From positions 1-46,764 of the forward strand of contig QBMC01000015.1 in assembly GCA_003242035.1 (NCBI GenBank): a stretch of DNA of 46,764 bases, given 5' to 3'. The position numbers were made by a program, and so were the translations under genes. Shown here in pieces: positions 3,229 to 9,892 of this stretch. This stretch comes from Nodosilinea foveolarum (lineage in GTDB: Bacteria > Cyanobacteriota > Cyanobacteriia > Phormidesmidales > Phormidesmidaceae). How positions within the stretch are numbered: the stretch's first letter is position 1; each line of letters opens with the position of its first letter. The notes under the pieces were generated by a model. It did no database searches and was not told the DNA's origin. It was given only the letters and a program-made list of their open reading frames with translations.

Positions 3229-5013
3229 CTAAACCAAAGCCATCTGCTTACTCTTGTCAAACGAACCAGAGCGCACAATTCCCTTACTCACATCAAGCGT
3301 CACCAGCGTCCCATTACGAATAATCTCAGTCGCTTTTTCCACGCCCACAATCACCGGAATGCCCAACCGCAGACCCAGCACAGCGGCGTGGCTCGCCATA
3401 CTGTCATCTTCGGTAATAATGCCGCCCGCCCGCCGAATCGTATCTACGTAGTCGGCGCTGGTGCGCGTAACTACCAAAATCTCGCCAGCGTTAAAGTCCT
3501 TTACCGCCGCCGTATCGTGCGCTACTCTAGCTCGACCACTCACTGCACCTTCGCCAATCCCGCGTCCATAACCTAGTACCGCAGTCACTACTTCTACTTT
3601 GATAAAGTCTGTAGAGCCAGCTACGCCCTGAACGGTGCCCGCCGTCATCACGACCAAGTCGCCGTCACGCAGCAAAGACTTCTCTTGGGCCACATTGGTC
3701 GCCGCCTGAAACGTTTCCTCCGGAGAACTAGAGTCCATCACCAGCAGCGGCGTCACGCCCCAAACGAGCTGAAGCTGCCGCGACACGTCCACCAGCGGCG
3801 TGATCGCCAGAATCGGAGCCTTGGGCCGAAACTTCGATACATTGCGGGCGGTGGCCCCTGTACGCGTGAGCGTCATAATGGCGGAGGCTCGAAGCTGAGA
3901 GGAAATTTGCCCCACTGCCTGACTAATGGCGTTGGGAATAGTATGGCTTTTGCTGAACTCTTCGGTCACTCGCTTAAGCTGCTCTTTCTCAGTTCGCAGC
4001 GCAATTCTATCCATCGTCGCCACGGCCTCTACCGGAAACTGACCGACTGCCGTTTCGTTAGAGAGCATTACCGCGTCGGTGCCATCAAAGATCGCGTTGG
4101 CCACATCTGAGACTTCTGCTCGAGTCGGTCTCGGGCTATCCACCATGCTGTCTAGCATCTGCGTAGCCGTAATCACCGGAATGCCCAGCCGGTTAGCGGT
4201 GGCAATCAGCCGTTTCTGTAAGACCGGGACATCTTCTGCGGGTAGCTCCACCCCCAGGTCTCCCCGCGCCACCATGACGCCGTCCGACAGCGATAGAATG
4301 GCGTCCATTTGCTCGATGGCTTCGTGCTTTTCAATTTTGACGATAACGGGCACACGCCGCTTGCTGTTGTTCTGAATGATTTCTTTAATCTCCAAAACAT
4401 CCTGCGGATTGCGCACAAAGCTGAGGGCGACCCAGTCTACGCCCTGATCCAAGCCAAATAGAAGATCTTTTTTATCCTTTTCTGTCAAAGCCTTAATCGA
4501 CAAATAGACGCCAGGGAAGTTCACGCCTTTGCTGTTGGAGAGCTTGCCGCCTACCACCACCTCGCATTCCAGGTTTCGCTGCTCTATCTGCTTGCCGACT
4601 ACTTTCATTTCCACCTTGCCATCGTCGAGCAGAATAACCGCCCCCATAGGCACTTCCTCTACTAGCGGCTCGTAAGTGACAGAGCTTTCTGTCTGTGTGC
4701 CTGGAACGGGACGACTGGTGAGAATGAATTTGTCGCCATTTTTGAGATGAATAAAGCCGTCTGTGAATTTGCCGAGTCTAATTTTTGGCCCTTGCAAATC
4801 CTGCAAAATGCCGACATGTTGGTTAAGCTCAAAGGAGAGTTGACGGATGAGCTTGATATTTTTCTTATGACTCTCTATTTCGCCATGCGAAAAATTGAGC
4901 CGCAAAGTAGTAGCGCCTGCTTCTATTAACGCTCTTAGCGTATCGGGGTCTTGGGTAGCAGGGCCAATGGTCGCAACAATTTTGGTTCGACGCAGAGCAG
5001 GACGCGATTGCAT
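3229..5013 (-). CDS. pyk: Pyruvate kinase with C-terminal mobile domain
   Basis: Pyruvate kinase converts phosphoenolpyruvate and ADP to pyruvate and ATP, the last step of glycolysis. The chain opens with RRTKIVATIGPAT and LRLNFSHG. It then carries the active-site signature VKIEKHEA, the MVARGDLGVELP loop and ITATQMLDSM. The last 110 or so residues form a PEP-utiliser swivelling domain with SMASHAAVLG, the long form usual in cyanobacteria (about 590 residues). I chose ATG 5013, which gives 594 residues and places the conserved KIVATIGP segment at residue 11. The frame is open to 5088, but the extra 25 residues look unlike the family. The gene diverges from crtR, with about 185 nt between starts. 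Confidence 0.95.
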   Translation of the reverse strand: MQSRPALRRTKIVATIGPATQDPDTLRALIEAGATTLRLNFSHGEIESHKKNIKLIRQLSFELNQHVGILQDLQGPKIRLGKFTDGFIHLKNGDKFILTSRPVPGTQTESSVTYEPLVEEVPMGAVILLDDGKVEMKVVGKQIEQRNLECEVVVGGKLSNSKGVNFPGVYLSIKALTEKDKKDLLFGLDQGVDWVALSFVRNPQDVLEIKEIIQNNSKRRVPVIVKIEKHEAIEQMDAILSLSDGVMVARGDLGVELPAEDVPVLQKRLIATANRLGIPVITATQMLDSMVDSPRPTRAEVSDVANAIFDGTDAVMLSNETAVGQFPVEAVATMDRIALRTEKEQLKRVTEEFSKSHTIPNAISQAVGQISSQLRASAIMTLTRTGATARNVSKFRPKAPILAITPLVDVSRQLQLVWGVTPLLVMDSSSPEETFQAATNVAQEKSLLRDGDLVVMTAGTVQGVAGSTDFIKVEVVTAVLGYGRGIGEGAVSGRARVAHDTAAVKDFNAGEILVVTRTSADYVDTIRRAGGIITEDDSMASHAAVLGLRLGIPVIVGVEKATEIIRNGTLVTLDVSKGIVRSGSFDKSKQMALV

Positions 5014-5197
5014 ACGCTTATCAGTTGAAAATATAAGAACAAAGATCTGCTCAAACGATACCATTGTCAGGCTCTGTCTATTCGACAACCGACGCCTTGG
5101 GGATGCCTAGAACCAGCCTTAATTGGTGTCACAAAACTTTATTATTCATCTGGGGTAGCGTATACTACCGAAGAACACAGTGTGAAGGAGCAAATGT

Positions 5198-6112
5198 ATG
5201 GTGTCGGCGGCAGTAAAGCCTCTGGCAGTTACTCGGAGAGTCCCTAAACGGCTGTTAGATGCCGATGGTGGTGTAAGCCCTGATTTACTCATCTTTTTTG
5301 GGGCGGTTTCTTTAGTAGCTGTTTCGACGGCTGGATATTTTGTCTGGGATTTTTCGCACTGGTTCTGTTTTGCCCTAAATACCTTGGCATTGCATTTAGT
5401 CGGGACGGTTATTCACGATGCGTCTCATAATTCGGCCCACAAGAACAAGATTATTAATGCAGCGCTGGGTCACGGTAGCGCTCTGATGTTAGGTTTTACG
5501 TTTCCGGTGTTTACGCGGGTGCATTTGCAGCACCACGCCAACGTAAACGACCCCGAAAACGATCCAGACCACTTTGTTTCGACGGGTGGCCCGCTGTGGC
5601 TAATCGCCGCTCGGTTCTTTTATCACGAGATTTATTTCTTTCAGCGCCGCCTATGGAGGAAGTACGAGCTGCTGGAGTGGGTTTTAAGCCGTCTAACAGT
5701 GGCTGGGTTTGTCTATGCCGCTTACCACTATGGCTTTATTGGCTACCTATTTAACTACTGGTTTTCTCCGGCCCTTGTCGTAGGTTTGGCGCTAGGTCTG
5801 TTTTTCGACTATTTGCCTCATCGACCTTTCAAATCAACTAATCGCTGGCAAAATGCGCGGGTTTATCCGAGTAAGGTACTCAATTACTTAATCTTGGGTC
5901 AGAACTATCATTTGGTTCATCATCTGTGGCCTTCGGTTCCCTGGTACAAGTACAAGCCGACTTACGAGATTATGAAGCCACTGCTAGATGAGAAAGATTC
6001 TCCTCAGTCTTTAGGTTTGTTTAAGACTAAGGATTTTCTCCACTTTGTTTACGATTTGTTTATTGGCATTCGCTTTCATGCTAAGCCGGAGAAAGCCAAC
6101 AAAAAAGCATAG
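5198..6112 (+). CDS. crtR: Beta-carotene hydroxylase CrtR
   Basis: CrtR is a membrane di-iron hydroxylase that adds hydroxyl groups to carotenoid beta-rings, giving zeaxanthin and myxoxanthophyll precursors. The 304-residue chain has the three histidine boxes of the fatty-acid-desaturase fold: HDASHNSAH, HLQHH and HLVHHLWP. Hydrophobic spans lie around residues 30-70 and 165-205. The start ATG follows GAAGGAG (5184-5190) with ideal spacing, and a TATACT at 5161-5166 may be a -10 box. The gene ends in a strong terminator. It converges on the genes for two OCP halves, whose ligand is a ketocarotenoid, so the neighbourhood concerns carotenoids. Confusion with a plain acyl-lipid desaturase is unlikely given the NYHLVHHLWPSVPWYKY segment. 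Confidence 0.92.
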   Translation: MVSAAVKPLAVTRRVPKRLLDADGGVSPDLLIFFGAVSLVAVSTAGYFVWDFSHWFCFALNTLALHLVGTVIHDASHNSAHKNKIINAALGHGSALMLGFTFPVFTRVHLQHHANVNDPENDPDHFVSTGGPLWLIAARFFYHEIYFFQRRLWRKYELLEWVLSRLTVAGFVYAAYHYGFIGYLFNYWFSPALVVGLALGLFFDYLPHRPFKSTNRWQNARVYPSKVLNYLILGQNYHLVHHLWPSVPWYKYKPTYEIMKPLLDEKDSPQSLGLFKTKDFLHFVYDLFIGIRFHAKPEKANKKA

Positions 6113-6128
6113 GTAAACATAGATCTGC

Positions 6129-6171
6129 AATAGGGCCTAGCTGCGAAATGAAGCAGCTAGGCCCTATTTTT
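6129..6171 (+). terminator. Rho-independent terminator of crtR
   Basis: AATAGGGCCTAGCTGC (6129-6144) pairs perfectly with GCAGCTAGGCCCTATT (6153-6168) across GAAATGAA, and TTTTT runs from 6167 to 6171. The AA before the stem gives partial two-way character for the convergent gene at 6208-6678. Confidence 0.92.
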
Positions 6172-6207: not shown

Positions 6208-6678
6208 TCAATCTCCAGCCGATTTTAGCCCTAGCAGTTCTGCGGGCGAGGCGAGTAGTTTGATCCGAACGCGCTCAATTTGGCTGGGTTTTGAGGTTCC
6301 GTCGCTGGTTGCCATGATAAAGAACCAGGCGACATTGACTTTGAAAACGACGGCGTTGACTTTGCCGGTGACGATGATTTGGGGGCGATCGCCAGACAAC
6401 TCCTTTGAAGTATCGCCCCCATCATTTTTTACATCCCACCGCTCAGGAAAAGCCGTAATATTGCCAGCCTCCTTCTCCAAATAGGCCAGAATCGCCTGCT
6501 TGCCAACAATCGGTGACTCAAACGGGGGAACTAGCTCGCCCTCTTCACTAAATAGGGCGGCAGTTTGCTCAAACTGATTCTGATTAAAGCTGCGGAAATA
6601 TTCCTCGGTGATGAGACGGTCTGCGGCTTCTATAGCAACGGTCTTCACATCTGTGGACGACTGATTAGTAGCGTTCAT
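6208..6678 (-). CDS. OCP C-terminal-domain homologue (CTDH)
   Basis: The 156-residue product matches the NTF2-like C-terminal half of orange carotenoid protein, judged by remembered alignment. CTDHs bind ketocarotenoids as homodimers and pass them to helical carotenoid proteins. With OCP numbering, the carotenoid-contacting Tyr201 corresponds to Tyr27 and Trp288 to Trp118, while Trp277 is lost in a short deletion before VNVAW. Glu244, the salt-bridge partner of Arg155 in OCP, corresponds to Glu70. PPFESPIVGK and LLASPAELLGL are diagnostic stretches. There is no cysteine, so the disulfide or redox control described for some CTDHs seems absent. It lies 77 nt downstream of the OCP N-terminal homologue on the same strand, probably one transcript. 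The start at 6678 has no clear ribosome binding site. Confidence 0.87.
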   Translation of the reverse strand: MNATNQSSTDVKTVAIEAADRLITEEYFRSFNQNQFEQTAALFSEEGELVPPFESPIVGKQAILAYLEKEAGNITAFPERWDVKNDGGDTSKELSGDRPQIIVTGKVNAVVFKVNVAWFFIMATSDGTSKPSQIERVRIKLLASPAELLGLKSAGD

Positions 6679-6755
6679 ATTCGTTGCAGTTGGATAGATC
6701 TGAAAACTCTACCTCAGCTACTCATTTGAGCACTGGGGTAGAGCTTTAGCGATGA

Positions 6756-7241
6756 CTATTGAGCGCCCATGTCAATAACGGACTGACGCAGCAGCGTAAT
6801 TTGCTGGTTGTAGTCTAGCTGGGTGATTTTGGTGAGTAGCTGCGAGGCGTCTCCTGGTAGCTCGTAGTCGTCAGGCACCTGAACGATGTCGCCTGCATCC
6901 ATCCCTTCGGAGAGGTGATACCAGAAGTACAGCTTGTTGTTGACGTCGAAGCTGCTGTAGATTTTGGTGTTGTCCGTTGAGGTCTGATTGACCAAATCTC
7001 TCATAAAGTCGAGCTGGGCCGAGCTGTCCATGCCTTTGACATCTTCGTACAGTCTTTCTGTAAATTGTGGCTCGGCAGCGCCGGGGGCAGCGGGTGTGAT
7101 AGAGCCACCCATTTTTTTGTAGATCTCCCAAAGCAGGCCAAGCTTGTCGTCGGTGCTGAGCGCTTTAAAAGCGGATATCTCGTTAGTAATATCTTCAGGG
7201 CTGAATTCTTCGGGGCTGGAGGCTTGTGGTGTCTTAACCAT
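6756..7241 (-). CDS. Helical carotenoid protein (OCP N-terminal homologue)
   Basis: The 161-residue product matches the all-helical, carotenoid-binding N-terminal domain of OCP. Such stand-alone proteins (HCPs) quench singlet oxygen, and some quench phycobilisomes. Key OCP residues are kept: Trp41 corresponds to Trp38, Tyr44 to Tyr41, Trp110 to Trp107 and Arg155 to Arg152. The ITPAAPGAA loop and the LLRQSVIDMG end match OCP. The chain stops where the OCP interdomain linker would begin. AAGGAAA precedes the ATG with good spacing. The CTDH gene follows after 77 nt, so the two halves of OCP are separate genes in one unit. The CTDH-adjacent HCP of Nostoc is called HCP4, but I cannot assign the clade here. 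Confidence 0.9.
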   Translation of the reverse strand: MVKTPQASSPEEFSPEDITNEISAFKALSTDDKLGLLWEIYKKMGGSITPAAPGAAEPQFTERLYEDVKGMDSSAQLDFMRDLVNQTSTDNTKIYSSFDVNNKLYFWYHLSEGMDAGDIVQVPDDYELPGDASQLLTKITQLDYNQQITLLRQSVIDMGAQ

Positions 7242-7378: not shown

Positions 7379-7771
7379 TCAGTCAGAGGTGAGGCATAAA
7401 TCGGGCCGCAGTCTCTGAGCGCCTCGTAGATAGACGTGGCCGACTTCCGATTGGTGAACGGGTAGGTAGGTATACAGCATGAGGCGAATGCAGCGAGGCA
7501 GACTGCCTTCTACGTGCATTTGCTGAACGTCTAGTAGGGGGACGCAATCCCATTTGGGGCGTTTGCGGGCGATCGCTGCTGGGAACACAGCATCCAAATC
7601 TCGCGTGACTGAAAACGTCGCACTCACAATCCGCGTTGGGTCGATTTGATTGTGTGCTTCAATCGCATTCAACATTTCGCTGACGGCCTGGGCGATCGCC
7701 TCAGCCGAATTTTCCTCAACGGTGGTTGCTCCTCGAATGGCTCTCAATTGCCAATCCGTTTGCCCGTCCAC
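7379..7771 (-). CDS. aroH: Chorismate mutase, AroH type
   Basis: AroH rearranges chorismate to prephenate on the way to phenylalanine and tyrosine, acting as a cytosolic trimer. At 130 residues, the chain aligns without gaps with Bacillus subtilis AroH. Arg7, Arg63, Arg90 and Tyr108 correspond to Arg13, Arg69, Arg96 and Tyr114. Two active-site positions differ: Cys75 is Asp81 and Glu78 is Gln84. I believe other cyanobacterial AroH proteins share this, but could not check. The start is GTG 7771, behind GGGAAAGAG. It lies 36 nt after sppA on the same strand, so the two are likely cotranscribed. The next gene on this strand (HCP) starts 137 nt further down. Confidence 0.93.
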   Translation of the reverse strand: MDGQTDWQLRAIRGATTVEENSAEAIAQAVSEMLNAIEAHNQIDPTRIVSATFSVTRDLDAVFPAAIARKRPKWDCVPLLDVQQMHVEGSLPRCIRLMLYTYLPVHQSEVGHVYLRGAQRLRPDLCLTSD

Positions 7772-7807: not shown

Positions 7808-8665
7808 TTAACCACTTATCCTGCGGGCTGCTGACGGTTGATACATCCACAGCGGGAGCCCACTGGTAGCCACCTCAAATTCTATGCGAGACATCGTTGC
7901 AGGCATGTAGTCCGGTAGCGCATCGAAGGCAGTTCGGCTCCCTGGCAGAAGCTTACTCAGCAGCGGCTTTTTCTCTTCAAAGGTGTAGCATTCCGCCTTC
8001 TCAGGATCGAGCCCACCTAGTTCAGCGGCCCATCTGCGCGCATCTTCTTCTGTCCCTAAGCGATCAACCAATCCCAGGCTTACTGCCTGCTCTCCGGTAA
8101 ACACGCGCCCGTCGGCAAATTCTCTCACCGCGTCTTCGGATAGGTTGCGGCCTTCGGCTACGGTGCGCACAAACTGGCCGTAGCTCACGTCAATCAGCGA
8201 TTGTAGAATCGTTTCTTCTTCTGAGGTCAGCGGTCGGTCGAACGCCAAAATATCTTTATAGGGGCCAGATTTGATCACCTTGAAGGAGACACCCACGCGG
8301 TCTAGCAATTTCTCAATGTTATTGCCGCGCAAAATGACGCCGATGGAGCCAGTGATAGTACCAGGATTAGACACGATGTGATGAGCACCAACGCCGATGT
8401 AAACGCCGCCCGAGGCTGAAATATTGCCGAAGCTAGCGACTATTTTGACTTTTTCCTGTAGCTTTCTGAGAGCGCTGTAGATCTCCTGCGAGTCGCCAAC
8501 GGTGCCACCGGGACTGTCAATTCTGAGTAACAGCGCTGGGAATTTCTTTTCCTCTACTTCTTTGAGGGCTTCTAATACCCGCTTGCGAGTGGCTCCGGCG
8601 ATCGCACCCTCAATTTCGATTCGAGCAACCTGTTTCCGATAGCGAGGCTTGAAGGGCCAAATCAT
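7808..8665 (-). CDS. sppA: Signal peptide peptidase SppA (S49 family)
   Basis: SppA-type serine proteases cut leftover signal peptides and some membrane proteins, and in cyanobacteria have been linked to light acclimation. This is the short form (285 residues), with one protease domain. The nucleophile is Ser85 in SASGGVY and the general base is Lys137 in GPYKD, spaced exactly as Ser147 and Lys199 of B. subtilis SppA. RIDSPGGTV and NPGTITGSIGV are also family stretches. No N-terminal membrane span is visible, so membrane attachment would be peripheral or through oligomers. It heads a probable sppA-aroH unit and diverges from the EamA gene over a short region holding a 14-bp palindrome. Confidence 0.93.
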   Translation of the reverse strand: MIWPFKPRYRKQVARIEIEGAIAGATRKRVLEALKEVEEKKFPALLLRIDSPGGTVGDSQEIYSALRKLQEKVKIVASFGNISASGGVYIGVGAHHIVSNPGTITGSIGVILRGNNIEKLLDRVGVSFKVIKSGPYKDILAFDRPLTSEEETILQSLIDVSYGQFVRTVAEGRNLSEDAVREFADGRVFTGEQAVSLGLVDRLGTEEDARRWAAELGGLDPEKAECYTFEEKKPLLSKLLPGSRTAFDALPDYMPATMSRIEFEVATSGLPLWMYQPSAARRISG

Positions 8666-8758: not shown

Positions 8759-9892
8759 ATGGATTCCTCTGCCGATATCGAAGATTCTTCAGTTGCCGCG
8801 CTAGATCCCTCAACGCTTCAGCCCCGGAGCAGGATAGAAAAGCTGGTGGCTAATCCACTGGTGCTGATTTCGCCTTTCTTTTTGTGGGGCACCTCTATGG
8901 TGGCGATGAAGGGGGCCTTGACTGAAACCACGCCGCTGTTTATCGCGAGCGTGCGGCTGATTCCGGCGGGAATGTTAGTCGTGGCTTTTTCGATGCTGAT
9001 TGGGCGATCGCAGCCTAAAGGCTGGAAGGCGTGGCTGTGGATTGGTCTATTTGCGCTAGTCGATGGCGCGATGTTTCAAGGGTTTTTGGCTAAAGGATTA
9101 GACCGCACCGGCGCGGGGTTAGGCTCTGTGATGATCGACTCTCAGCCGCTGGCCGTGGCGGTGATGGCAAGGTTTTTGTTTAAGGAATGGATTGGGCCGC
9201 TGGGTTGGTTGGGCTTGTTTGTGGGGCTAGTGGGTATTAGCTTTATTGGGTTGCCCGACGATTGGATTTTGGCGGTGTTGAATGGGAAAATTCCGGCGAT
9301 CGCGGTAGAGCAAGAAGTTTGGTCGATGCTGTTTCGGCACGGCGAATGGCTAATGCTGATGGCGGCGCTGTCGATGGCGGTAGGCACTATCTTGATTCGC
9401 TATGTCGCGGCGGTCGTCGATCCGGTGATGGCGACGGGCTGGCACATGATTATCGGGGGCCTGCCGCTGCTAGTACTTTCGAGCCTGGAAGATCCGACGG
9501 CTTGGGAAGGGTTGTCTTGGGCGGGGTGGACGGAGATGGGTTATGCGACCGTGTTTGGGAGTGCGATCGCCTACGGTGTCTTTTTCTATATCGCGGCTCA
9601 AGGCAGTCTGACTAGCCTGAGCGCCCTCACCTTTTTAACGCCGGTATTTGCTTTACTGTTTAGCACGTGGCTACTTTCAGAAAGCCTTAGCCTAGTTCAG
9701 TGGAGCGGTGTAATGCTGACGCTGCTTAGCATTTACCTAATCAATCGCCGGGTTCAAATTGCTAGCTGGCTGTCTAGTCAACTGTCTATTTTCTCGTTTG
9801 TTCATCCTCCGATTGCCCTGTCCAATACGTCAGAGGCTGTCTCTGTAGACACCATCTTGACAGAAGCTGACTCAGACTCAGGAGCACGGTAG
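8759..9892 (+). CDS. EamA/DMT-family transporter
   Basis: The 377-residue product has about ten hydrophobic spans in two EamA repeats, the layout of drug/metabolite transporters that export amino acids, metabolites or drugs. The first repeat opens with the FFLWGTSMVAMKGAL segment typical of the family. The second covers about residues 200-340 and includes ALTFLTPVFALLFSTWLLSESLS. A polar 35-residue N terminus and a serine-rich 45-residue C-terminal tail are extra. The substrate cannot be read from the sequence. The start at 8759 is the only ATG that keeps the whole N terminus, and its ribosome binding site is weak. Confidence 0.88.
   Translation: MDSSADIEDSSVAALDPSTLQPRSRIEKLVANPLVLISPFFLWGTSMVAMKGALTETTPLFIASVRLIPAGMLVVAFSMLIGRSQPKGWKAWLWIGLFALVDGAMFQGFLAKGLDRTGAGLGSVMIDSQPLAVAVMARFLFKEWIGPLGWLGLFVGLVGISFIGLPDDWILAVLNGKIPAIAVEQEVWSMLFRHGEWLMLMAALSMAVGTILIRYVAAVVDPVMATGWHMIIGGLPLLVLSSLEDPTAWEGLSWAGWTEMGYATVFGSAIAYGVFFYIAAQGSLTSLSALTFLTPVFALLFSTWLLSESLSLVQWSGVMLTLLSIYLINRRVQIASWLSSQLSIFSFVHPPIALSNTSEAVSVDTILTEADSDSGAR

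Follow-up and report, generated by a model that had tools for sequence, protein, structure and literature searches.

Two separate genes of the cyanobacterium Nodosilinea foveolarum encode homologues of the N- and C-terminal halves of the orange carotenoid protein (OCP), and the pair adjoins a convergent crtR gene. This arrangement raises the question of whether the two proteins, a helical carotenoid protein (HCP) and a C-terminal domain homologue of OCP (CTDH), re-form an OCP-like, light-switchable complex or act as a carotenoid relay, two interpretations that a first-pass annotation had placed side by side. OCP is proposed to have arisen by fusion of proteins whose descendants are the HCP-CTDH pairs. 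In the following, the window denotes the whole stretch of DNA that was analyzed (46,764 nucleotides).

Identity of the gene pair

The features of the locus are collected in Table 1. Each of the two open reading frames has its own start and stop codon, and HCP and CTDH are 77 nt apart. The HCP matches Pfam Carot_N (PF09150) as a stand-alone domain (2e-54, residues 16-160 of 161), and its closest solved relative in phmmer is Anabaena HCP4 (8qx5, 3e-35). Its AlphaFold model is all-helical (pLDDT 82), with Anabaena HCP4 as the best PDB match in Foldseek. The CTDH is missed by the specific Pfam models and gives only a weak NTF2/SnoaL match; its best solved relative by sequence is the Anabaena CTDH All4940 (6s5l, phmmer E 2.4e-18), and its AlphaFold model is NTF2-like (pLDDT 84) with an Anabaena CTDH as the best PDB match (Foldseek E 7e-12). 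In the alignment, the protein carries the 4-residue deletion that sets CTDHs apart from OCP C-domains (PMC6123778).

Table 1. Positions and supporting evidence of the features at the HCP-CTDH locus
Feature	Positions	Strand	Evidence
Pyruvate kinase, conserved crtR-side neighbour	3229-5088	minus	PF00224 3e-120; synteny
crtR, beta-carotene hydroxylase	5198-6112	plus	NCBIfam NF045688 equivalog 537 bits, cut-off 475
Perfect 16-bp hairpin with trailing T run, between crtR and CTDH	6129-6168	plus	inverted repeat; fold z -6.6
CTDH, clade-1-like	6208-6678	minus	156 aa; phmmer, model, residues
HCP-CTDH spacer, stable stem-loop followed by UUUU	6679-6755	minus	77 nt; fold
HCP, called HCP5 type	6756-7241	minus	161 aa; Pfam, phmmer, model, tree
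aroH-type chorismate mutase, upstream neighbour	7379-7771	minus	TIGR01796 155 bits, cut-off 82
S49 (SppA-like) peptidase, conserved neighbour	7808-8665	minus	PF01343 3e-51; synteny
EamA family transporter, conserved neighbour	8759-9892	plus	PF00892 2e-44; synteny

A split or frameshifted OCP is ruled out by the separate starts and stops, the missing linker and the CTDH-specific deletion. The base composition gave no signal of a horizontal origin, with a GC content of 0.51 for HCP and CTDH and 0.51 for the window. Two loop insertions of ~8 and ~6 residues, at about 81-90 and 124-131, distinguish the CTDH from the Anabaena CTDH and most relatives. The gene identities given at first pass were correct according to Pfam, phmmer and Foldseek and, for crtR, the NCBIfam equivalog, and the pair and its spacing were likewise confirmed. 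The locus holds a natural HCP-CTDH pair of a known kind.

Phylogeny and class of the two proteins

Phylogeny, a check that the first-pass annotation had proposed, places the HCP in a probable HCP5-type clade and the CTDH among mostly HCP-linked CTDHs. The HCP falls into a 30-row clade (support 99/100) with the HCP of ESFC-1, a clade obtained with a tree that did not include the Spirulina HCP5 sequence itself, and outside which one Halothece HCP lies. The Arg58/Phe145 numbering of the ESFC-1 HCP is that of Spirulina HCP5 (PMC12059629). Judged by this placement, the window's HCP is called HCP5 type, with the caveat of the outlying Halothece HCP, which implies that HCP5 may be broader than one clade. 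Arg60 and Phe147 in OCP numbering, which are conserved HCP5 features and not published strict criteria, are both absent from the window's HCP. Assignment to HCP4 was rejected, as grouping with Anabaena HCP4 gave an AU p of 5.8e-8.

The CTDH groups with CTDHs of Leptolyngbyaceae (90/82), while those of same-genus relatives form a separate clade (98/90). Orthology of the window's CTDH with these sibling CTDHs was rejected, the p value of a joint clade being 0.006. Clade 2 CTDHs carry Cys103 and form a disulfide-regulated dimer; the window's protein has Phe112 at this site and no cysteine anywhere, and with neither Cys103 nor Trp277 it looks like a clade 1 CTDH.

Partner genes and the frequency of the arrangement

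The OCP, FRP and ketolase genes for which a genome search had been suggested at first pass are all present in the organism's own genome (4.75 Mb, 299 contigs). Its three Carot_N proteins are the window's HCP and two full-length OCPs, one of which is followed by FRP (3e-30 to the solved FRP). CrtO was found above the cut-off and two CrtW-like proteins below the cut-offs, making a ketocarotenoid supply plausible. The only stand-alone CTDH is that in the window. Next to the second full-length OCP gene is an ORF that by eye looks like an IS6-type transposase (L002:457-1005, contig C67), so that this OCP copy may have moved.

A locus scan that took one genome from each species gave 80 loci, of which 76 are HCPs. 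A CTDH lies directly downstream on the same strand in 59 of these 76 (median gap 140 nt), a proportion that is not an unbiased frequency because the sample was chosen by likeness to the query. In 12 genomes the scanned HCP either has no adjacent CTDH or loses its neighbour to a contig end, and nine of these genomes contain a stand-alone CTDH elsewhere. Adjacency has been published for Anabaena HCP4-CTDH (PMC6123778) and for Euhalothece HCP5-CTDH1 (PMC6971039). HCP-CTDH adjacency is ordinary and already described.

Two further arrangements were seen in the scan. In Leptolyngbya sp. Heron Island J, an HCP-CTDH pair is followed ~550 nt downstream on the same strand by a gene for a CrtW-like ketolase (L105:5417-6205), a possible cluster of ketocarotenoid supply and carrier. 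At seven loci, mostly of Nostocales, a second, divergently oriented HCP of another clade is located ~2.5 kb from the HCP4-CTDH pair (L117:913-1443, L141:762-1292 and similar).

A carotenoid relay as the probable function

The pair probably works as a relay from CTDH to HCP, with a protective HCP that is independent of light. The cysteine-free, clade-1-like CTDH would take a ketocarotenoid from the membrane, form a homodimer around it and hand it to the neighbouring HCP for burial between Tyr41 and Trp107. Once loaded, the constitutively red HCP would shield the cell by quenching singlet oxygen, excess phycobilisome excitation or both, and would do so without a light switch, alongside the two complete OCPs.

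The observed gene identities, folds, contact residues, partner and ketolase genes, phylogeny and synteny agree with such a relay. Equivalents of the carotenoid-contact residues are kept in both proteins, namely Trp38, Tyr41 and Trp107 of the HCP (OCP Trp41, Tyr44 and Trp110) and the Tyr201 and Trp288 equivalents of the CTDH. Carotenoid binding, the direction of transfer and quenching would be as in the studied homologues. Natural CTDHs draw canthaxanthin out of membranes and deliver carotenoid to HCPs, HCP4 cannot take up carotenoid from membranes alone, and holo-CTDH with apo-HCP gives complete transfer, with no shared carotenoid (PMC6123778). The 4-residue deletion has been linked to shifted Glu244 and Trp277 and to complete transfer in place of sharing (PMC6123778). 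Quenching of phycobilisomes in vitro is known for HCP4 and HCP5 (PMC12059629), and the Euhalothece HCP and CTDH with canthaxanthin, apparently tested singly, did not react to light (PMC6971039). Full transfer, the transfer-linked deletion, the missing photoresponse and quenching by HCP5 together make a relay with a constitutively active HCP the best reading. The pairing is not obligatory, since same-genus relatives keep the HCP without a CTDH of the window's type.

We consider it unlikely that the CTDH is mainly a general carotenoid loader or store, serving also the two OCPs, and owes its position next to the HCP to inherited linkage. No other stand-alone CTDH occurs in this genome, which has two OCPs, CTDHs can load apo-OCP in vitro (PMC6123778), and in five relatives the same HCP stands with no CTDH beside it. 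However, many cyanobacterial families keep HCP and CTDH linked, suggesting a tie between the two proteins, and OCP itself can draw carotenoid from membranes (PMC6123778).

Contact residues and the salt bridge

The case for a light-switchable complex had been built on conserved contact residues, and the alignment bears out every equivalence then named. HCP Arg152 corresponds to OCP Arg155, and Tyr27, Glu70 and Trp118 of the cysteine-free CTDH correspond to OCP Tyr201, Glu244 and Trp288; the Trp277 site is occupied by Val111. In closed OCP, Trp277 acts as the second clasp. All tabulated HCP4, HCP5-type and OCP sequences carry Arg155, including the five same-genus HCPs that have no CTDH at the locus. 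Among 82 further CTDHs, whether or not an HCP adjoins them, Glu244 is found in 81 and Tyr201 and Trp288 in all, while Trp277 is kept in 24, mainly of the Cys103-bearing type, and the Cys103 site is Phe in 61. Since the salt-bridge residues are family-wide, and kept also where no partner is adjacent, they do not point to a re-formed light-switchable OCP; as judged from the alignment, they describe the family and nothing special to the window's pair.

An OCP-like heterodimer of HCP and CTDH, with one shared ketocarotenoid and switched by blue light, is thus very improbable. The Arg152 and Glu70 of the Arg155-Glu244 salt bridge are in place together with Tyr27 and Trp118, and separately expressed OCP domains can form an OCP-like heterodimer, as cited in PMC12059629. 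Yet HCPs and CTDHs without an adjacent partner show these residues with little or no variation, the Asn104-Trp277 contact is impossible with Val111, a linker is missing, and the CTDH has the 4-residue deletion that follows the Cys103 site. The unresponsive Euhalothece proteins also speak against a switch. Of the two first-pass interpretations, the relay stands in view of the published natural pairs, whereas the light-switchable complex is not supported, its residues being family-wide, Trp277 lost and transfer in natural pairs complete.

As for quenching, HCP Asp31 and Asp32 are kept at the sites of OCP Glu34 and Asp35, to which calculations on OCP with the phycobilisome give, along with Arg155, a part in shaping the quenching state (PMC10997198). 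Arg60 and Phe147 (OCP positions) have been named as HCP4/5-specific phycobilisome contacts (PMC12059629). The window's HCP has Glu57 at the first of these sites, where its siblings have Glu, Gly or Asn, and Tyr144 at the second, where they keep Phe; Arg occupies position 60 in 24 of 26 HCP5-type and in 21 of 21 HCP4 sequences. Several OCPs also lack Arg60, so Glu57 alone does not rule out phycobilisome binding. With Glu57 and Tyr144 combined, the window's HCP may lack the quenching demonstrated for HCP5.

Locus history and transcription

The gene order HEAT-EamA-sppA-aroH-crtR-pyk is common to four other genera, in full in three (G008, G009, G012) and to contig reach in the fourth (G011), and in all four aroH adjoins crtR with no HCP between. 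In the window's genus, the HCP lies between aroH and crtR in six of the seven genomes and is missing from the seventh (G005), and only the window has a CTDH at this locus. The six genomes with this HCP each contain exactly one stand-alone CTDH, and the seventh has neither; in the five relatives the single CTDH is located elsewhere, in three of them just upstream of a different type of HCP. We infer that the ancestor of the genus acquired the HCP, probably with the CTDH, at the old aroH/crtR site. A position of the window as sister to all relatives was not rejected (p 0.15 for the flanking genes, 0.33 for the HCP), and a single loss of the CTDH in the relatives and a later regain in the window lineage are both compatible with the trees. 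That the pair sits in an older aroH/crtR locus, HCP-free in other genera, is modestly new. In G005, crtR is broken into two frames (L190:5891-6807), through either an assembly error or a pseudogene, and the HCP is absent from the locus.

It is most improbable that hydroxylase and carotenoid proteins form one functional carotenoid module, for although the HCP stands beside convergent crtR in six of seven genus genomes, the crtR-aroH adjacency is older and HCP-free in the four other genera, a strong hairpin separates the convergent genes, such an enzyme occurs within 4 kb among the 76 HCP loci only at the genus loci and at one CrtW-like locus, and CrtR makes hydroxylated, not keto, carotenoids. 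Convergence of crtR with the CTDH had been recognized at first pass and was confirmed; the HCP keeps its place beside crtR within the genus, whereas in other genera this neighbourhood is not kept. The adjacency is a shared position of the genus and not evidence of joint function.

The hairpin between crtR and CTDH is a probable crtR terminator. The region 6679-6760 on the minus strand folds with -27.2 kcal/mol (z -5.1 against dinucleotide shuffles), and its stem-loop is a possible attenuator; with a hairpin and U run between HCP and CTDH, a simple single operon may not hold. Of 54 HCP-CTDH spacers, 39 fold with z < -2, a count that covers these spacers alone, and a conserved attenuator is not claimed.

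Relation to known systems and significance

The HCP4 (8qx5) and CTDH All4940 (6fej, 6s5l) of Anabaena PCC 7120 resemble the window's pair in adjacent genes, folds, carotenoid-contact residues, the Arg155 and Glu244 equivalents and the 4-residue CTDH deletion. In contrast to them, the window's HCP is called HCP5 type, 47% identical to Anabaena HCP4 and outside the HCP4 clade, and its CTDH lacks Cys103 (Phe112) and Trp277 (Val111) and has the two extra loop insertions. With full-length OCP (OCP1) the pair shares homology of both halves and their order, but it consists of two genes without a linker, lacks Trp277 and has the CTDH deletion, and true OCPs are encoded elsewhere in the genome. Closer parallels are HCP5 of Spirulina subsalsa (PMC12059629) and Euhalothece HCP5-CTDH1 (PMC6971039), with which the window has in common an adjacent cysteine-free CTDH and, on the assignment made here, an HCP5-type HCP. 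The window's pair most likely shares their working principle. It differs from these HCP5 proteins in having Glu for the conserved Arg60 and Tyr for Phe147, and, unlike that of Euhalothece, in which ketolase and FRP are missing, the genome contains ketolases, FRP and two OCPs.

An exchange of carriers within the genus is a tentative possibility: the window's organism would keep the old HCP-linked CTDH, the relatives would have dropped it and load the same HCP from a CTDH of another lineage encoded elsewhere, and the HCP surface (Arg60 to Glu) may no longer quench phycobilisomes as HCP5 does. If true, carriers and receivers would be interchangeable in nature. With near-identical loci with and without an adjacent CTDH, the genus offers a natural comparison, useful for asking whether the HCP needs its own CTDH or any CTDH will serve, and whether quenching is altered when the charge at the phycobilisome contact changes. 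The noteworthy points of this locus are the possible exchange of partners in the genus and the changed residue at the phycobilisome interface.
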